This document shows positions 18,879-49,602 of a DNA stretch of 64,000 bases, one piece after another; the stretch's first letter is position 1; each line of letters opens with the position of its first letter. Source of the stretch: Neopestalotiopsis rosae. Its lineage: Eukaryota > Ascomycota > Sordariomycetes > Amphisphaeriales > Sporocadaceae. The stretch lies in NCBI GenBank assembly GCA_023078685.1, contig JALGAS010000005.1:930001-994000 (forward strand). The letters are read 5' to 3'. Below the pieces are notes generated by a model. The model was not told the DNA's origin. It worked only from the letters and a program-made list of their open reading frames with translations, and made no database searches. Made by a program: the position numbers and the translations under genes.

Positions 18879-19394
18879 GAAACTCGTCTCAATTGGATAG
18901 ATCGAGTATCCGTAGACTGATGTTGTCGACGTACTTACTCAATACCGCAAGTGGTAACCAGTAATAAAACCTTAGAATGAATACGATTGATCTAGGGGAG
19001 ATATAAAGGATGTAAACTTTGCGTGATCTTCATTGGTACGAAAATAGCTTTATACCCATCTTGTAAGACGTAGGAAGAATCCTGCCTTGTGCCTTGTCAA
19101 AGGATTCTAACGTAGGGCAGTGCTGGCGGTGCAGAACAATTTAGCACCTGACAGTGGGGCCCTGCAGCGTAAACGCAGTGACCGTTTGGACCTCTCTCGG
19201 TGGGATGGGCCATGCGACTTTGTGATCTTTCAGCTTCATTCGCGCGGCTGGGTCAAAGTCAGAACTGATATTAATACAGCCCAACGACCTTGCACTTTTG
19301 ATCATCGAGATGACTTTTTTGCGCTCTTTGCAGTAATTATTCGCGGCTTTGCAATTTTGTCTTTTGGAAGTGTAATTCAAGAATCAGTCGGATC
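18879..19394. other. intergenic region, no gene seen
   Basis: Spacer between two genes on the same strand. No gene or clear signal is visible. Confidence 0.5.
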
Positions 19395-20840
19395 ATGGCG
19401 AGCACTGTCGAAGAGCTGCGCGAGCAATTCAGCTGGCCTAGCGACATCCTTAGCCTTCTTCTGCTCATCGGCGGCGACATTGTGCAGACTGCGATCGCTC
19501 AGCAAACTGGATATACGATACGTATACCGGGCTCAAGAATATTCATTCCTGTCGCGCCTGTCTGTTTCTCATTCGGATGGGTTGCCTATGGCTTCTCAAG
19601 TCTCCTCGCGGCCGTCGGGGAGATGAGGTTGATGCCCAAGAATGAAGTCTCGGCAATACTCGTGAACTGCTCAAATAGCTACGCCCGGGAAGTTCAGTCG
19701 TGGGTGCTTGGCCGACTTCTCAGAGACCATGAAATTAGTTGTAGGCACGACTCTCAACCGAACGGAGACGGTAATGTGCATAACAGCATCAGGATCGACA
19801 TTTTCGAGGTCGGACCTGTGTCAAGGCCAGATCTGGATTTCGTGTGGTGGCTTGGTTGGGCTACTCTTCTTTTGCAAATCGCAATCGCAATCATACCCCT
19901 CGCTCTGTATGGCGACTGGGGAGTCTTGCTTATTGCTCTCGGCGGCAATGTGCTTGTCGCTCTTACATGTGCCATGCCTCAATGGAACGAAGAGAAATGG
20001 GCAGGTCGTTTACTAGAGAGAGAGAAAGTGACTTGCTTGACCCGCGGCAATGGGCATGGTCATATCATGGTCTTCGTCAGTAGAAAGGGTTCGTGGGATT
20101 TGGAAAGTCTCGCCACCGGTATCGCATCTTCGCAGCGAGTAGGCAGTCGATGGATGACCGTGTTACTTGCAGTCCTGTGGAGCTTTCTTCTCATCAGTGT
20201 ATCTGGTTTGAAAGAGCGGACTTGGTTCATGATCGGCATTGGAGCCATCGGCATGTTGCAAAACATCTATGCCGCTGGAAATACCAGGCAGCCTGGGGCG
20301 TTGAATCTTCACTTGACGCCTTTCGCGCGTGCCCCGATCATTGTGGGCCGCCGTAGGCCGTACGCGGACGACTCCGATGCTGATGTTGATTTGGACGCCG
20401 AAAGCCAAAATTTAGAGGAACTGAGTGCGTGGCTATCCAGTAAGGCCGAATTCCAGCAGCCGCAGGGAGAACTCAAGACTACTCCACAGATGCCAAAATG
20501 GCTGGCGACCATGTCAAGAGATGATGGCATTCCTTCTTGGCTGGAACCTATAACACCAACCACTGTAGCGAAGGCGTCAACTTGGAATAAGCCTCCTATA
20601 GCGAGCGCTAAAACCCCCAAGGTCATACACGCTATAGGGGTACATGGAGCACTAATCGAGCTTGAAAAGTGGATACCAGCAGCAGGACTGTCGCTAGTGA
20701 ATATCTTCTTCCCTGGGAATCTGGAGTATTTGGACTCAAACATTCGAGACAATGTCCATAAGAAATTTTGGAAGACGGCATTTCACACCGTATCTTTGAG
20801 ACAGAGAGCAGAGAGGCAGAGAAGGATGATGAACATATAA
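19395..20840 (+). CDS. multi-pass membrane protein of unknown function
   Basis: A single open frame of 481 residues without introns. About six hydrophobic segments are visible: SDILSLLLLIGGDIVQTA, FIPVAPVCFSFGWVAYGF, WWLGWATLLLQIAIAIIPLA, GVLLIALGGNVLVALTCAM, WMTVLLAVLWSFLLISVSG and TWFMIGIGAIGMLQNIY. A long soluble C-terminal region follows, with an acidic patch (DDSDADVDLDAE). I do not recognise a named domain, but the N-terminus resembles conserved uncharacterised membrane proteins of filamentous fungi. The gene ends about 350 bases upstream of, and on the same strand as, the NACHT-ankyrin gene; a functional link is possible but rests only on position. A transporter role is not indicated by any motif. 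Confidence 0.8.
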   Translation: MASTVEELREQFSWPSDILSLLLLIGGDIVQTAIAQQTGYTIRIPGSRIFIPVAPVCFSFGWVAYGFSSLLAAVGEMRLMPKNEVSAILVNCSNSYAREVQSWVLGRLLRDHEISCRHDSQPNGDGNVHNSIRIDIFEVGPVSRPDLDFVWWLGWATLLLQIAIAIIPLALYGDWGVLLIALGGNVLVALTCAMPQWNEEKWAGRLLEREKVTCLTRGNGHGHIMVFVSRKGSWDLESLATGIASSQRVGSRWMTVLLAVLWSFLLISVSGLKERTWFMIGIGAIGMLQNIYAAGNTRQPGALNLHLTPFARAPIIVGRRRPYADDSDADVDLDAESQNLEELSAWLSSKAEFQQPQGELKTTPQMPKWLATMSRDDGIPSWLEPITPTTVAKASTWNKPPIASAKTPKVIHAIGVHGALIELEKWIPAAGLSLVNIFFPGNLEYLDSNIRDNVHKKFWKTAFHTVSLRQRAERQRRMMNI

Positions 20841-21189: not shown

Positions 21190-24100
21190 ATGTTTGTCGA
21201 GCGCGCGCAGACGGCATCTGCACAGAGCTTGAGTTTTGAGGACGGTATGTATGCAATCTTTTTAACATAGTTCAAGTTTGGCGTCAAGCAAGCCTACGCT
21301 ACTAGGCTGATTATTAGGATGTCATTCTTTTGCTAATTCGCAACAATGCAGCACTAGATACTCTTTTCAATAAGATCTTGGAACAGCTCAGACAAATCGA
21401 CCTCTTCTCGAATTTGAATCAGCCAGTGATCTTTCCAGTCTACGCACACGACAACCCAGTTGCAGGCACCGCTCACGCCTGGTGTGTGATCCAGATCATC
21501 AAATGGCTCGAGGCCGCAGGCTGCCGTGCTATTTCGGACAGAAATCCAATTCTTCCCCACCATGCCCAGAGAGGCGACAGCGCAGCGATCCGGAATATCC
21601 TTTCGAACCAGTTCTGTCTTTTACCTCAAGGCATTGGTGACTTCCAGGCTGCCAAAGAACGGACTCACGCGCATAAAGTCCTCGTATTCTGTTCTGAGGT
21701 ACTTCGACATTATTGTGTCAATGCGTCGGCTCGAAAATATGTGGAAACAATCGCAGATGTATATAAGGAGTATCGCGGCAAGCCAAGGGATGATTTGGAG
21801 CGACAACTTCACTCGACCGTTGAAAATGAGGCGAGAAACGGGAGTGCATGGTTCCACCATGTGTTGACGGAAATCGCCTTCCTCAAACTCAGAAGTGATC
21901 CTGACAGCCAAAACCATGGAATCATCCCAGTCACGCTTGACGGCGAGTTACCGGGTTATTTGTCCTTCATTGGCTCGACTGATCTGGTCCTCAAACGGGA
22001 GAGTGTCTCATTGTACGCTTCTGATTTACACAAGACGTTCTTCAAAATTCTATTGCAGATATATCCAGACCAAAACTTGACCATCAAGAAGTTCGAGGAT
22101 TGCTATATGACGCTCAAAAACCGTTGGGCAAGTAGCAGCGGAACAATTGCTCGAGACAGCTTGAATGTCGATGCTGTGAAGTTTATTCTTCAGGCGCACG
22201 CGTCCATAGAGCAAGAGACCCAGATCGCTACTCGGCACCGACTTAGAGATGGACGCAATGACCAAGTAGTCGAAGAGCGTGAGTCATCTCAATTCAAATC
22301 AGCCGGGCGATTACTAACAGTATAGAGTAGCTGGAGAAGAACCAGATGACGAAGCCCTATTAAAAGAATTTGTCGACAAGAGACATAAATTCCTCAGCAC
22401 ACTCGCCACAGTGCCATACCGCGAGAGAAAAGACAGAAATCCAGAACATGGCGAAGGCACGTGTAACTGGTTCAAGAGCCATTCGAAATTCCAAGAATGG
22501 CAACAAAGCAAAGGGGCAAACTTTCTCTGGGTTTCTGCTGACCCTGGCTGTGGAAAATCTGTCTTGGCAAAATACTTGGTAGACAATGTTCTTCCAAGCA
22601 CTGAGAAACAAATAAGTTGCTATTTTTTCTTCAAGGATGATTTTGTGGAGCAAAGGACGCTTGAGAGTGCTCTTCGATGCCTTTTACACCAAGTCTTTAA
22701 ACACAACCCATCGCTACTGGACCAAGAGCTGTTTGCCAGTTTTGAGGATGACAGCCAACTCTTGCATTCTCGCACAGATCTCTGGGAGACATTGACCAAC
22801 GTCTTCCAATCCAAACTCGTTGAGAGTTTTGTCTGTATTCTCGATGCTTTCGACGAATGCTCGGCCGATGATAGGTCCTTTTTCATGAAGAAGTTGCACA
22901 AGCTCTACATGGAGGAGCCGGTCCCACCCATCAAGCTCCTCCTGACGAGTCGACCTTACGAGGATATCGCTAGAGGTCTTAAAAAACTACAGAATAAGAA
23001 GCTAATCATTCACCTGGAGGGAGAAAGCGAGCAAGAGATGGATAAAATATCCCGAGAAATCGATATTGTTATTGATAAGAACGTCCACGACCTAGGCGAG
23101 GACCTCGACCTCGAGCCGGATGTCACTGCCCTCATCAAGAAAGAACTGTCTGAAGTGGAGAATAGAACCTATCTATGGGTCGCTCTAATGATAGACATGC
23201 TGAAAAATGCGATTCAAGCATCAAAAAGCGCTTTGAAGTCTCTAATCCAGCAGCTTCCGCGATCTGTCAGCGATGCTTATGAGAAGATTATGAGCAGAGA
23301 ACAAAACGACGCGACAAATGTCAAGACTAGAAGACTGCTGCATATAATTATGGCAGCTAAGGAACCGTTGACTCCGGGCCAAATTGCTGTGGCTTTCTCA
23401 ATGAGTGAAGGCGGCCCGTTTGACGAGAAAGCGATCAGCCGTGACACGAAATTTGTCAGGGAATTTTCCCGTCTTTTGATTGTTATTCGAAGCGAAGCTT
23501 CAAAGGCCTCTGATTTCAGTATATTGGAAGAAGAGACGATGATTGAGAAAACATACCTCGCTCATCAGACAGTCAGAGAATTCTTGATTATGGAATCACC
23601 TGAGCCGCCAAAAGAGGCTTTACTGGGGCCCTTCGTCCGATGGGCTCACTCCTTTCACCCTCAACATTCTAACCGAGTGTTGGCAGGAAGTTGTATGTCT
23701 TACCTTGAACAATATGATGCAAAAAGCTATTCCAACCACATGTTGGCAGGCTCGGTGGGGAGTTATGAATCTTTCTTTGAACCACGTGGTGCAAACGATC
23801 ATGTCTTCTCAGACTACGCCCAAATGTACTGGTATGTTCATTTGCGCGAATCGGGTGACATGGACGAGATAACGGTTGTACAATCACGAAATCTATGCGA
23901 TCCAAGCTCGAAACAATTCTGGCCTTGGTTCGGAAGATACTGGCGCAAATTATCCTCGGAAGCGCAGCCTCCTTTGAACTTTCGGATGAACCCCCCAACA
24001 AACATTACAGGCCTAATCGTTGCATCTATGGTAGGACTCAACGAGACAGTTGAGTTGCTACTCCATACGCAACAAGACTTAGAAGCGAAGGACAATACTC

Positions 24101-25049
24101 ACCATAAGACTGCTTTTTCTTGGGCTTGTTACTGGACCCATACTCGTATAGCGTGTTTGCTTCTAGACTGGGTGTCTAAGTCAAACGCTAGTATCTTCAA
24201 CAAATTATCAACCCCATTGACGACTTCGACGTTACACCATTGCATGACGTTATCGGGAGACTCATGTTTCTAGACTCAGACCCTAAAAAGGAAGCGGCCA
24301 AGGGGGACATCTTATGTTTGCTTGTGGAACGCGGGGCTGACACCAATTTACAGGATGCAGAAGGTAGCACTCCGCTGCATTTGGCAGTTGACTGTGGCGA
24401 AGCCGTGATGAAGTTGCTCTTGCAATCGGGAGCTGACCCCAATCTTAAAGATTGTAAGGGTCGTACCGTGCTTCAGGTAGCAGTACAAGAGGATTACCTG
24501 GATACGGCCAGGTTGCTCTTGAAACACGGTGCTGAGTCCGACCCCAATTTACATGATTCCGATGACCCGACACCGCTTCTAACGGCTATTGAAAACAACT
24601 CTATCGACATGACAAAATTGATATTGGACCATGAAGCTCATGTCAACCTTGAACGCAAGGCGTACAATCCTGTGACTCAACTGCACAAAATCACGTCACC
24701 TCTGATCTCCGCGATACAGCGTAGATATACAGAGATATCTGAGCTTCTCCTGAAGCGTGGAGCAAACATTGATTTCACTTCTCAGCAATGGAAAGAGTTG
24801 CTTCTTCAGGCAGTGCGGGATGAGAACAGAGACATTATTGAGATCATACTCGATCGTGGAGGTCATCTCAACTTTATGTTAAACGATGAGACACCACTTC
24901 TTGTCGCATCAAGATGTAACAAAAGGGAAATGACCGAGTTCCTACTATGTCGTGGAGCAGACGTAAACTATCAGCCTTCAGAAGAAGAACTCCTAGTCAG
25001 CATGTCAGGGCTCACAGCGGTATGGTATCCGTGGAGGCTCGGACTATAG
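21190..25049 (+). CDS. NLR-type protein: TIR/SEFIR-like + NACHT + ankyrin repeats, frameshifted
   Basis: Exons 21190-21244, 21352-22278 and 22328 onward; introns GTATGT...GCAG and GTGAGT...AGAG. Residues about 40-230 resemble a TIR/SEFIR fold: FPVYAHDNP, then IKWLEAAGCRAISDRN, KVLVFCSEVL, and IPVTLDGELPGYL. A NACHT domain follows, with Walker A ADPGCGKSVLAKYL (about residue 400) and Walker B CILDAFDEC (about 497). Two ankyrin repeats end the first frame, which stops at 24273 (975 residues). From about 24193 a second frame continues with seven or so further ankyrin repeats (GADTNLQDAEGSTPLHLA is one) to a stop at 25049. No plausible intron joins the frames. One missing base in the AAA run near 24197-24200 would join them into about 1230 residues. 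This is therefore either an assembly error or a recent mutation. Fungal NLRs mediate non-self recognition and programmed cell death; that role is inferred. Confidence 0.82.
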
Positions 25050-25727: not shown

Positions 25728-26497
25728 ATGGCAGATAAAAAACTCACTCTGCTGCATCTTCAGGTAAGACTTAGCGCTTACCCGGATTGCATCGGCGACC
25801 ACTAACACGTCTCCAGCATTCGCAATCACAGAGCATCCTTTGGCTCATAGAAGAGCTCAAGGCAGAGTATGGCCTTGAATATGAGCTCAAGCTCTTTGAA
25901 CGCGTCAAGCAGCGCGCTCCGCCCGAATTGAAAGAGACGCACGTCTTGGGCAAATCGCCTCAGCTCATCACGCCGAGCGGCCGCGTCATTGTAGAGCGCT
26001 CCGCCATCGCGCTCTATCTCATAGAAACCTACGACACTGCGGGCAAGTTCAAAATCGCGTCGCCAGCCGCCACCCCGGACGACGATGCCGTCAAGGAGGA
26101 CTCGATGATTTCATTCGCCAATTCGACGCTCAGCGGCAATCTCATGCTGCGATTCATCTTCAAGGCATTGGTCGCCAACACGCCCTTTTTCGTCCGCCCC
26201 CTCGTCTCTGGCATGAGCGCGCTGCTCAACAAGGCCTTTTTGGCCGCCGAGGTCGATGCCAACATGTCGTACCTGGACTCTCTCCTCGAGGGCCGCGACT
26301 ATCTAATGGGCGGCAAGACGCCCACCAGGGCTGACTTTGTCCTTGAGTGGTACATTGATTGGGGAGCCCAGTCGAATCTCTACGAGGCGGGCAAGTACAA
26401 GAATATTGCATCGTGGTTGGAAAGGTGCACAAGCCGGCCAGCTTGGAAGAGTGGACTCGAAAAGGGCAATGGATATAATCTGACCGACTTTCAGTGA
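25728..26497 (+). CDS. glutathione S-transferase, Gtt1-like
   Basis: Exons 25728-25763 and 25817-26497, with a 53-base intron (GTAAGA...CCAG), give 238 residues. The tiny first exon encodes MADKKLTLLHLQ, the first beta strand of the thioredoxin-like domain, and splicing continues with HSQSQSILWLIEEL. Typical family marks follow: RAPPELKETHVLGKSPQLI (with the cis-Pro of the fold), VIVERSAIALYLIETYD (Glu-Ser glutathione contact) and the all-helical C-terminal domain ending in RADFVLEWYIDW and SRPAWKSGLEKG. The closest familiar relative is yeast Gtt1, a membrane-associated GST acting in detoxification and peroxide defence. A C-terminal hydrophobic part (LVANTPFFVRPLVSGMSALL) is compatible with membrane contact. 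Substrate range cannot be judged. Confidence 0.92.
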
Positions 26498-27969: not shown

Positions 27970-30900
27970 TTACTCATCAATCGCCCCCAGCACCGCCGCC
28001 TGCCGAGCAAAACTCGTAACATTAAACTCGCCCTCGACATCCCGGCCGACCAGGAAACTCTCGGGCGGACCCAGATAACTAGGCCGCACGCCGCCGAGGT
28101 CGACGATAACCTTTTGCACCACCACACTCGGCGCCAGGCCCCAGACGCGCAGCGTGTGCGCGCCCTCCTGCGTCACGTTCCACCGCGTCGTCGTGTTGTG
28201 GCTCGGGTGGTGGCCCCAGACGGCGTCGCCGACGGCGTAGCCCCAGGATGGCGGGAGGTCGGCGCCCACGCTGTCGCCGACGAAGCGGACCGTGGTCGCG
28301 GGTGCGACGGCTCCGTTCTTGGGAAACATGGACACGGCAAAGTGGAGCGGGTTCCGGTCCGAGAGGTAGTTTTGGCTCGGGCTGAGGTACAGCGTCACGT
28401 TGACGTTGGTCGCGTTGGTAAAGAGGTACAGGTCGTACTCGAGCGCCGGGCCCGTCTCGGGCGTGATTGGGTCGGCGTCTTGCGGCCACAGGGTCACGCC
28501 GCCATAGGTCCGGCCATAGTCCTTGAGGGTATGATAGGTGACATCGGTGCTGCTGTTGGTATAGGTGTTGCTCAAAGGATTGTAGATCCTCTGGTAGTTG
28601 GGACCCTCAATGGCAACGTACTTATCGGACTCGACGAAGCCGGTGGTGAAGTTGGATGGGACACTGCGCAGGTTGATTGGGAGCTGTATATACGGAGAAC
28701 CATACCAAGTTGCAAAGCCGCTGTGGCCGCACCCGGTAGTAAAGTTGATGTTGCTGACAGTGTTGTTAACAATCTGTGGCGCCGTGGCCCAGTCTATAGA
28801 CACAAATACACGCGTATCTGTGCCATTATTGGGTCCAACCGTGCCGCTGTACTGAGAGAGCTTCACCCAAGGCTGGTCTGTCTCTGCTTGCCAGTCACAG
28901 GATGCAGTGCCTCGAGAGAAGACGTCGAACCATCTCGTCGTGACGCCATATGGGTCGAGTGGTGGCAGCGTCAGGTACTTTCCAGAGTTGGTGTGATATT
29001 TATCGTCGCCGGGGATGCTAGCGTTGAGTCCTTCTACTGCAATGCCAACGGATCCCGCGACTGCAGAGACGGCGGATTGGACGAAGGACAAGGCCGGGGC
29101 AACGTTTCTCATGGGTTGCTGCCAATATCCATCGTATCCGAAATGTGTTTCTATGACTTTGTCAGCTCGTGCTTTGGTATAATGAATGTCTCGACTTACG
29201 ATCCAGCATGTGTTCCCACTTGCCATCCAACAGACTATCCCATTGCGCAGTAAGATCGCCGTCCGCATTAAAGTCTGCCAGGACTTGCATAGCCACGTCA
29301 TTAGCAGAGCTGCGGTGTTGATTGGCATAGACAGCGTTCCGCTCTGCACCAAGGTGTACCTTGTGGACAATCTGCCCACCAAGGATTGGATGCAAGACCA
29401 TTTCAAAAAAGGCGGCCTGCTCGCTTTCATCCAACTTGTCATGAATCGCCTGCGCATCTGTCGCAAGGGTATCCCACTGCGCCAAGATGGCGTCGGCCTC
29501 GTTGTAGTTGATAACCGAGTAGACGTACGGCTCAATCAGCTCATACTTTCTTCGGGCGGCGTACATGCCGTACCGCGTGAGAATATCGGTAATCTCTTCC
29601 GCATAGTCCGGACCAAACTCTCGCGCGACCCATGCCGTGAGCCAGTCAGTGGTGTTATCGACACCCCACTTGTCGGCATCATAGGCAATATCGAGAAAGT
29701 GGCTAAGGGGAAGTTCAAGAGGCTTGAGATCACCGATGTTGACAATCCAGATGCGGTCGGCGCCGTGAGCATACGCGAGCTGCATCTGCTCGGCCGTCTT
29801 TTGCAGCTGAATCGTGTTGATCCATTTGTAGTTGCGCGGATCGCCTACATAGTCAAAGTGGTAATAGACTCCCGCGCCGCCAGCCCGCCCCGTCTCGTTG
29901 AGGAGCGGCACCCGGCGCACGTTACCCCAGTTGTCGTCGGCCCACAGGAGGGTAACGTCGTCGGGCACCTCGAGGCCGTCGAGTATATAGCTAGCCACCT
30001 CCTTGTACAAGCACCACATTTGAGGCACCTGCGTGACGTCGGTCTCGAGAACGTCCTGGATGATTTGCCGCTGGTGTGCGACCAGCGTCTCGAGCATGCT
30101 CACAATAGCACCATTTCCCAGGCCTTCAATAGCGGTGTCACCGGTCCCGCGCATGCCCATGGTCCACAGGCTGTTTCGCGCATAGGGCTTGGCTCGTTGG
30201 GCGCCGTACACAAAGTACTCGTCAATGGTCTGATTGTTCAGATTGTATGCCCACGGTCCGAGTCCTTCATTGATGTAAAATGTGCCAAACTCATTCTGAG
30301 CGCGCATCATGGGCTCGGTGTGAGAGCTGCCCAGAACAATTTCCCAAGCATCTGCCAGGGGTTGGTTGGCAGGATCATCGACCTCGAACATGGTGCCCCA
30401 TAGTGCCGGCCAGAGATAGTTGGCGCGCAGTCTCAAGAGAATCTCAAAGACGTTTGCGTAGAAGTCCTTGTTGTAGCCATCGCCAAAGGGAGTGTCTGGG
30501 TAGTTTTCGCGCACCCAGCCGGACAGGCCGGGCTGTTCATCGTTCAGGAAGAAGCCGCGGTACTTGACCGAGGGCGGCCCCTGAACTTTGCCCTCTGGCA
30601 AGAACCAAATCTCCTTGTTCTGTCTGATGGGCACGTCTGCCCACCAGTACCAGGGGCTGACGCCAATCTGCTCGCTGATGTCGTAGAGACCAAAAATGAC
30701 GCCGCGAGGGTCACTCCCGGCAATCACGACAGCGCTTTCAGATCCATCGATGGGGCTGTCTACCACTTTTGACACAAATGATTCCCATTGACCTTGGATC
30801 TCGGATACGTCAAGCTTGCCACTTGCGATCAGGTCGTCAATGATTTTGGAGTGTCCGATCGTTCCGGCAATGATGACGGTATCGGCGGCCGAGGGTTCGG

Positions 30901-31315
30901 AGTATTCAGGTCCCGAGAAATATGCTGTGCCGTTGGTCGAGTACTATCAAGAGTGAGTATGTATCATCATTGTATATCAATGAGGAAAGCTTCAACGTAC
31001 CACTGTAAAATTCGCCGCGGCGGGATGATACTCGTAGGACGCGGGACTCGCGTCGGCATTGCCATTGCTCAGCGTATAATTCGTACCCGTAACCCGACCA
31101 AAGTCCTTGGCCAGATCGCCCGCGGCGCGAATGACGCCCCAGTAGTCATTATCGGCCACCAGGATCTGCGGTGTGGCGATGGAGCCACCAGCAAGCTGGA
31201 AGGCACCGTCCACGCTGGTGAAGCTAATGACGGGCTGTTGGCCGAGTCCAGTCACCACAGGCAAAATTGCCGCTGCCGTGGTGAGCAGGAGAGACCCGAG
31301 CTGTTGGCGATACAT
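27970..31315 (-). CDS. GH115 xylan alpha-glucuronidase, secreted
   Basis: Exons 31315-31001, 30943-29200 and 29150-27970 give 1079 residues. The introns are 57 and 49 bases (GTACGT...ATAG and GTAAGT...ATAG). The second acceptor was chosen because it forms LDQTHFGYDGYWQQP, a GH115 signature, across the junction (about residues 685-699); the alternative AAAG acceptor would give a different sequence. A signal peptide opens the protein (MYRQQLGSLLLTTAAAILPV). Other family marks are SPWYWWADVP, KYRGFFLNDEQPGL, RLRANYLWPALWG, LLWADDNWGNVRR and DRIWIVNIGDLKP. The C-terminal 390 residues form the beta-rich domain with many N-glycosylation sites. The enzyme removes 4-O-methyl-glucuronic acid from internal xylose units of glucuronoxylan outside the cell. 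Two GGCTAA motifs upstream (listed separately) fit induction by a Xyr1/XlnR regulator. Confidence 0.94.
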
Positions 31316-48256: not shown

Positions 48257-48459
48257 GGCAGGTTGGCGCAGTGGTCAGCGCATCGAGTTCTCTAGTCCCC
48301 CAGTGGGCAGCCCGGGCAGATCCAAAGGCGGAGGGCACCAGAGGGCCTCTGTACAACACACGCTCCGGGGCCTGACAAACCCCAGCCAGAACCCGGCGGA
48401 TCTCTCACTCGCGGTGGTGGCCTTCTCGAAGGCCCGGGGTTCGAATCCCCGACCAGCCA
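48257..48459 (+). tRNA. tRNA-like Pol III gene with long intron, anticodon unclear
   Basis: The ends pair as an acceptor stem (GGCAGGT with ACCAGCC, one A-A mismatch) and are followed by A. The D-arm is GCGC-AGTGGTCA-GCGC, with A box TGGCGCAGTGG at 48264-48274. The T-arm is CGGGG-TTCGAAT-CCCCG, with a perfect B box GGTTCGAATCC at 48438-48448. The anticodon stem halves TCGAG and CTCGA are separated by about 145 bases, so an intron of roughly 130 bases would interrupt the anticodon loop. The 5' half of the loop reads TTCTCTA, which does not give a standard loop, so I cannot assign the anticodon. The D-arm and T-arm style recall elongator tRNA-Met. A run of T (from 48466) could terminate Pol III. 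It may instead be a tRNA-derived element or pseudogene. Confidence 0.55.
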
Positions 48460-48546
48460 ATCTTCTTTTTCCCTTTTTGTCCTTTTTCTTCTCTCATTAG
48501 TTTGCGGAGTTCAGGTGTCTTTTTCTTATCGAGTATATATTATATA

Positions 48547-49602
48547 ATGCTTACTTTCAAATCAGATCTCAAGGCCGATTATAATATTTCTATGCCATTA
48601 TTTTCTACCGAGATGGATAAACTCAAAATCGCCCGCCATGGGGGCCTTCAACATCTGACCCGCATATTGGGACTCTCTGACGAGCATCTCTATTCCACGC
48701 AAGACGCCATCTTCGTCTCAATCGACTTGGAAGTTTCGAGACAAGAGAGAAGTGCTGCTTTAAACGACAAGAGCTATATACCACATGTGAAAGAGCTTGG
48801 TATCGCATGCCTTGACACTCGGCATGTCTTCGCTGTCAAGAGTTCGTCTTGCGAGGACTCGCGGCTTGAAGGTTCATCTTCCGGGGAATTTTCGGGTTTG
48901 AACTGTAATACGGAAACACGTTCTATCACGACAAATCAGTTCTCAACGTCTCATTCTTCAAAGGACTTTGAAGACTGTGATATAACCAACTTTCAAGAAT
49001 GTGTATTTGCCGAAACGTTTCATATTCACCAGCGCGACCTAGCTGCTACTATTACTCAATACCTGAGGATCCAAGACTCAACACATCTTGATACTATTCG
49101 CAAGATTGTCATTACCGGCCACTCGATAAAACAAGACTGGAATATTATTCAGCGACTAGGGGTTGACATCAATCGCATCGCTCCTATCATAGGAGTGGTT
49201 GACACCCATTCATTGAGCCGTTATATCATCAAAGATGCGCCTGGTTTCTCACTTTCGGACATTTTAACCCATTTTCAATGCCCTTACAACTCGTACGAGC
49301 TTCATAACGCCGGAAATGATGCCACATATACGCTTTATATTATGGTCCTCCTAGCAGTCAAATGGGCAGCTGGCAAGGATATGGCCCAGGGAGGATTGGC
49401 AAATATTGGACGGCTGCAGAAATTCATGGAAACCGAATCCAAGGCTAGGCGCTGGAAGCCGGTAAGACGTGCATTAGGTGCTCGTAGCTTCGAGGGTAGC
49501 GTTGGAAGCATGTGGTCGGAATCCAAATCAGAAGCCAGTGAAACAAATAATGGGAAGAAATCAGAAGCCAGTGAAACAAATAATGGGAAGAAAGAAATAT
49601 AA
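48547..49602 (+). CDS. DEDDh 3'-5' exonuclease-like protein (Gfd2/YDR514C type)
   Basis: An intronless frame of 351 residues from the ATG at 48547, which directly follows a TATATATTATATA stretch. A second in-frame ATG (MPLFSTEMDK) lies 15 residues in. The RNase H-like fold is marked by FVSIDLE (first acidic pair), VITGHSIKQDW (second) and ELHNAGNDATYTL (the His and last Asp), the DEDDh set of Mg-dependent exonucleases. The Gfd2/YDR514C family is the closest match I recognise; QIP-like nucleases of RNA silencing are more distant. Codon use is richer in A and T than in the genes to the left, which may mean transfer or weak expression. The C-terminus has two exact copies of an 11-residue unit (SEASETNNGKK), encoded by a 33-base tandem repeat. 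Confidence 0.78.
   Translation: MLTFKSDLKADYNISMPLFSTEMDKLKIARHGGLQHLTRILGLSDEHLYSTQDAIFVSIDLEVSRQERSAALNDKSYIPHVKELGIACLDTRHVFAVKSSSCEDSRLEGSSSGEFSGLNCNTETRSITTNQFSTSHSSKDFEDCDITNFQECVFAETFHIHQRDLAATITQYLRIQDSTHLDTIRKIVITGHSIKQDWNIIQRLGVDINRIAPIIGVVDTHSLSRYIIKDAPGFSLSDILTHFQCPYNSYELHNAGNDATYTLYIMVLLAVKWAAGKDMAQGGLANIGRLQKFMETESKARRWKPVRRALGARSFEGSVGSMWSESKSEASETNNGKKSEASETNNGKKEI

Follow-up and report, generated by a model that had tools for sequence, protein, structure and literature searches.

A fungal NLR gene of Neopestalotiopsis rosae with a predicted SEFIR-like N-terminal domain and a candidate catalytic glutamate

We analyzed a stretch of 64,000 nt of Neopestalotiopsis rosae (contig JALGAS010000005.1, positions 930,001–994,000; hereafter the window) from an assembly of 53.8 Mb in 17 contigs. 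At 21190–25049 of the forward strand it carries a gene encoding a NOD-like receptor (NLR), whose N-terminal domain almost certainly adopts the SEFIR/TIR fold. We read this effector as SEFIR-like and as belonging to the TIR fold group, the fold being predicted and the homology to SEFIR remote. The domain is followed by a NACHT/NPHP3_N nucleotide-binding domain (22456–23049; Pfam E-values 1.1e-41 and 4.6e-8) and by ankyrin repeats (23998–25049; Ank_2 E-value 8.8e-37 for 24192–25046, with a weak match of 1.6e-4, below the cut-off, before it). These strong NPHP3_N, NACHT and Ank matches confirm the order of domains given by an earlier model-made reading of the window (the sequence-only reading) and fit the definition of a fungal NLR by a NACHT or NB-ARC domain plus repeats.

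The effector lies on exon 2 (21352–22278, protein residues 19–327), which is delimited by the open frame, the homologs and the structural model and also encodes a helical C-terminal extension. Residue n of the domain is residue n+19 of the protein. The AlphaFold2 model of the domain has a predicted local distance difference test score (pLDDT) of 86.4, a predicted TM-score (pTM) of 0.86 and an alpha/beta layout. In this confident model the fold is flavodoxin-like and of TIR type, and ranks 1–36 of the fold comparison are all TIR or SEFIR domains; rank 24, listed as “receptor A”, we take to be the SEFIR domain of IL-17RA. The sequence-only reading had recognized a TIR/SEFIR layout from the segments YAHDNP, IKWLEAAGCRAISD, KVLVFCSEVL and IPVTLDGELP, all of which were found at the claimed places in the open frame 21318–22325.

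To place the domain by sequence we collected its relatives. A search over 5.8 billion proteins yielded 63 relatives on long proteins at E ≤ 10; using 13 aligned domains as query, a second one added 50 domain-sized relatives. Of these 113, 110 were found at E ≤ 1.3e-5 and the remaining three (P0063, P0112, P0113) at E-values between 0.004 and 0.05. Of the named relatives, the closest to the window domain are from Neopestalotiopsis (71%) and Pestalotiopsis (60%). The family alignment comprises 96 rows, namely the window domain and 95 of the 113 homologs, 18 being left out for short coverage, with a median pairwise identity of 30%.

We compared this family by hhalign with alignments of bacterial SEFIR (11 of 12 loci used), TIR_2 (21 of 25), nucleoside deoxyribosyltransferase (15 of 15), HET (20 of 20) and response regulator domains (19 of 20). 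The match to SEFIR had a probability of 96.3% (E-value 1.3e-9, 161 columns), and 95.3% (E-value 2e-8) when a near-copy was taken out, leaving 10 rows. The match to SEFIR scored 51.8, whereas 50 column shuffles never exceeded 18.5 and reversed profiles scored around 15, both controls staying below 1%, so a chance match is ruled out. Restricting the family to 55 fungal-type rows gave 94%, and restricting it to 36 bacterial-type rows gave 90%. The TIR_2 set turned out to include two SEFIR proteins (L056 and L058, identical to L030 and L034 of the SEFIR set). With them the match to TIR_2 was 40.6%, or 9.2% when query and template were exchanged; with the 19 rows left without them it was 3.6% or 15.8%, depending on direction. 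When the insert that sets the family apart (domain residues ∼124–162) was cut out in three different ways, SEFIR remained at 96% and TIR_2 rose to 65–68% (89–92% with L056 and L058). As a positive control, SEFIR and TIR_2 found each other at 99.95%, and at 99.5% with the cleaned sets. By sequence, then, the domain is related to SEFIR, and to TIR largely by way of SEFIR. The earlier assignment to TIR/SEFIR was therefore right, with SEFIR clearly the nearer of the two.

The other profiles gave 0.12% (deoxyribosyltransferase), 0.04% (HET) and 0.07% (response regulator), and still at most 1.6% with the insert removed. An origin of the domain from HET (PF06985) or deoxyribosyltransferase thus has no profile support. 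HET resembles the window domain in being an N-terminal cell-death domain of fungal NLRs, and the literature holds it to be remotely TIR-like; however, the profile test is insensitive here, because HET and TIR_2 did not detect each other either. The window genome itself is rich in HET, with at least 150 HET-domain stretches over the cut-off (150 of 350 candidates were scored, all of them over).

Across the 96 rows the sequence drifts, except for a small number of polar residues that hardly ever vary. Domain residues D62, Q86, S114, H168, V170, T172, E173 and R180 are identical in all rows and H169 in 95. Along the gene, on the forward strand, the conserved sites are FPVYAHDN at the end of strand beta-A and in the following loop (21432–21455; F27, Y30 and H32, each in 94 of the 94 rows with a letter there), S-D after beta-B (21534–21539; D62, protein D81; S61 in 94/96), the Q-F-C-L-L-P motif at the end of helix B (21609–21626; Q86, protein Q105), KVLVFCS comprising beta-C and the serine (21675–21695; S114, protein S133), FHHVLTE at the start of helix C with the candidate catalytic motif H-x3-E (21852–21872; H168, H169 and E173, protein H187, H188 and E192) and, from model and alignment, beta-D with IIPVT (21921–21935). 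The family-specific insert lies between beta-C and helix C (21720–21842); the model places two helices in it (124–140 and 145–161), and it is unmatched or gapped against SEFIR. With the exception of Q86, T172 and R180, the polar invariants sit in the model at the ends of strands A, B and C and in the first turns of helix C. The NAD+ (nicotinamide adenine dinucleotide) pocket of TIR enzymes lies at that place. With bacterial SEFIR (PF08357) the family shares the fold group and the F-Y-H, D, S and I-P anchors; unlike bacterial SEFIR, it has the insert of ∼40 residues before helix C, the histidine pair before the glutamate, Q-x-x-L-L-P and the helical C-terminal extension, and it is missed by the Pfam model.

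The sequence-only reading had suggested looking for the catalytic glutamate of TIR NADases (NAD+-cleaving enzymes). E192 may fill this role: it is invariant, lies on helix C and pairs with the conserved glutamate of SEFIR in five of five trimmed alignments; the register of the untrimmed SEFIR and of the TIR_2 alignments differs. Since the register varies in this way, we regard E192 as a strong candidate for the catalytic residue and not as proof of one. The nearly unchanging residues suggest a putative enzyme, which we consider likelier than an adaptor, and NAD+ is our best guess for its substrate.

On balance we lean towards a mechanism in which the ankyrin repeats would sense a ligand or a guarded protein, whereupon the NACHT domain would oligomerize and pack the N-terminal domains together. 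Once packed, these domains would use E192 as catalytic residue to cleave a nucleotide, most probably NAD+, resulting in local regulated cell death, or in a signal for it, in allorecognition or defence.

Several observations weigh against this interpretation. The search against the TIR, TIR_2 and SEFIR profiles, proposed earlier as a check, gave no Pfam match for the window domain even at E ≤ 10. The refutation named in the sequence-only reading, however, called for a missing flavodoxin-like sheet in addition to a missing clan match. Foldseek alone found nothing in the PDB at E ≤ 0.001, and the rows at the top of its list were phosphatases instead of TIR domains; we dropped them, their TM-scores normalized by model length being 0.13–0.15. 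In the profile comparison, the weak match falls on TIR_2, the side with the known NADases. The untrimmed SEFIR alignment pairs the SEFIR glutamate with H168 (H187) and not with E173, and the TIR_2 glutamate is aligned with L171, two positions away from E173, in four of five trims and with a gap in the fifth (21-row set including L056 and L058). The tryptophan found four residues before the glutamate in TIR is absent, the position being histidine in 95 of 96 rows and tyrosine in one. In tryptophan, register and profile match alike the family thus differs from the TIR NADases (AbTir, SARM1, RPS4/RUN1, SPARTA). The solved SEFIR domains that match best, those of ACT1 and IL-17R, are scaffolds for which we know of no enzyme activity, and the strong conservation could also be due to folding or assembly. 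Finally, the ankyrin part of the gene is out of frame as read.

Further searches added little. Neither TIR, TIR_2 nor SEFIR is among the 25 commonest Pfam families listed for the window protein and 37 relatives (38 rows), nor among the matches listed for 10 further sequences. For the N-terminal domain, nothing useful was found in NCBIfam, in PADLOC or, by sequence, in the PDB, and Foldseek likewise found nothing among viral models at E ≤ 0.001. A Pfam match to UBA_N4BP1_C (E-value 0.19) was regarded as noise.

The frame bears on whether the gene is functional in this strain. The coding sequence at 21190–25049 is not a single exon; comparison with P0001 and P0002 (Neopestalotiopsis/Pestalotiopsis) divides it into three. 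Translation starts at the ATG at 21190. Exon 1 (21190–21244) encodes MFVERAQTASAQSLSFED and supplies one base of the codon that follows, its N-terminus matching those of P0001 and P0002. Intron 1 (21245–21351, GTATGT … TGCAG), placed by this comparison, would restore the frame and fits “ALDSLFDKILE” of P0002, so that the spliced protein would begin MFVERAQTASAQSLSFED-ALDTLFNKILEQ; an acceptor at 21317 was rejected because it breaks the frame. A probable intron 2 (22279 to ∼22327, GTGAGT … AG) separates effector domain and NACHT part in a frame-compatible reading with uncertain exact ends, and exon 3 begins at ∼22328 by the same comparison. Within the ankyrin repeats the frame changes near 24191–24210. 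As read, the protein ends after 975 amino acids at an in-frame stop (24271–24273), and the remaining repeats occupy another frame (24192–25049). Several GT-AG introns could formally join the two frames, the likeliest being an unproven one of 83 bases (24191–24273) that would delete a conserved ankyrin segment. As P0001 runs smoothly across the same place, a frameshift seems the simplest account. The gene may therefore be real but disabled in this strain, its sensor cut and a 975 amino acid protein left, which would be compatible with any functional reading. The frame change and the stop speak for this; the effector and NACHT parts are open, and an intron such as 24191–24273 or an assembly error would explain the frame change as well. 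We consider a disabled gene a tangible but somewhat doubtful possibility.

If the domain were instead a non-enzymatic adaptor, NACHT oligomers would act as the template for a SEFIR/TIR assembly, and this would recruit other proteins in the manner of IL-17R–ACT1 or MyD88 signalling. The scaffold role of the solved SEFIR domains is in line with this, whereas invariance of a few polar residues in a drifting sequence is not. Searches of the window genome (G000) with four different family members revealed no second locus with the SEFIR-like domain, which makes a partner that carries this domain less likely; a partner of another fold may exist. Nor did any SEFIR or TIR_2 match exceed the cut-off in this genome, a weak negative in that the SEFIR control genomes were silent too, although the SEFIR model matched 12 of 299 bacteria. 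We therefore consider an adaptor unlikely, though worth keeping in view.

The relatives fall into two sets. The first holds many NLR-like proteins with NACHT or NB-ARC domains and ankyrin or TPR repeats, and its named members are Pezizomycotina fungi. The second consists mostly of NACHT proteins with WD40 or HEAT repeats, with named members from Mycoavidus, Glomeribacter and a bacterial Mortierella elongata endosymbiont, and one partial protein (P0086) that bears the name of the fungus Linnemannia. We labeled 41 rows as bacterial-type from names, architecture and likeness, 7 carrying bacterial names, 1 a fungal name (P0086) and 33 none. In the tree of the 96 rows the two sets form the two sides of one branch with an SH-aLRT (Shimodaira–Hasegawa-like approximate likelihood ratio test) support of 100; the tree was built by a quick method with midpoint root and no bootstrap, and has several long branches. 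As the root is only a midpoint, the direction of any transfer is not readable from it. P0086 (Linnemannia gamsii) sits at zero branch length beside the bacterial-type P0054 and is either DNA of an endosymbiont that entered the assembly of a fungus or the product of a recent transfer.

The pattern FHHVLTE[ILM] matched 25 times in 84,980 bacterial and archaeal species, one match encoding a relative (Candidatus Glomeribacter gigasporarum); as Mycoavidus was missed, the scan is no full census. In a viral collection it matched 44 times, one contig (L097), which looks like a bacterial one, encoding a SEFIR-like domain on a NACHT-WD40 protein. Both L097 (1380–5525) and a locus from an endosymbiont of fungi (L002, 5491–9413) show an NLR-like architecture of a helical or TPR-like stretch, SEFIR-like domain, NACHT-like NTPase and HEAT-like or WD40 repeats, the first stretch and the repeats being judged by eye. 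A tblastn search of plasmids gave no match.

These distributions allow a broader idea, to which we give limited credence: the family could be a SEFIR-like clade not charted so far, confined almost entirely to fungal NLRs and NACHT receptors of endofungal bacteria, whose active site (invariant HH-x3-E, S, D, Q, R) and chemistry would be its own. Receptor parts would have moved between host and symbiont, and the bacteria may use them to imitate fungal immunity or to shut it down. It is improbable that the domain is an enzyme acting on a different substrate or by a different chemistry (nucleoside or nucleotide N-glycosidase, cyclic ADP-ribose synthase or nuclease), the profile similarity to deoxyribosyltransferase being only about 0.1%.

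The class itself is not new. PMC9815663 (Wojciechowski et al., 2022) describes, in its passages on the subject, a cluster of Pezizomycotina NLR N-termini with a median length of 389 amino acids that partly resemble SEFIR, with an AlphaFold2 model backing homology to TIR and HET and with relatives in Rhizophagus and Mycoavidus. The window gene very probably belongs to this kind, to which it adds a member; the match, by description only, concerns NLR position, fungal group, SEFIR resemblance and Mycoavidus relatives. The relatives from both organisms are separate proteins in that account, whereas in our set those from Mycoavidus are NACHT proteins, and its passages on the cluster name no catalytic residues. 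Elsewhere, PMC11291939 notes NACHT receptors common to Mortierellomycota and Mycoavidus, and PMC12774641 lists SEFIR among NAD+-cleaving domains in phage defence. At the level of titles and abstract openings, we found no test of the activity of a fungal SEFIR-like domain.

The sequence-only reading had called TIR-type N-termini uncommon among fungal NLRs. A survey of eukaryotic TIRs (PMC13142454, 2026 preprint) reports, in the parts consulted, hardly any TIRs from fungi and states that the InterPro STIR clan contains no sequence of fungal origin. A branch found in fungi that profile and fold support as SEFIR, and that Pfam models miss, thus fills this blank, and its invariant residues make the vague label “TIR-like” testable. 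If NAD+ is indeed cleaved, fungal NLRs would have an effector chemistry in common with plant TIR-NLRs and bacterial defence. The presence of the domain on NACHT proteins from endofungal bacteria prompts the question whether host and symbiont have exchanged immune genes.

Just upstream of the gene, a forward-strand open frame of 508 amino acids (19314–20840) has hydrophobic stretches and, from 19395 on, no Pfam match at E ≤ 0.001. Ordinary neighbors are a cytochrome P450 (12097–13404, forward), a glutathione S-transferase (25775–26497, forward) and a glycosyl hydrolase of family 115 (29162–30943, reverse). Further downstream, 48454–49599 on the forward strand encodes a DEDDh exonuclease-like domain (PF21762, E-value 3e-27), which is also seen on the SEFIR-NACHT-ankyrin relative P0010.
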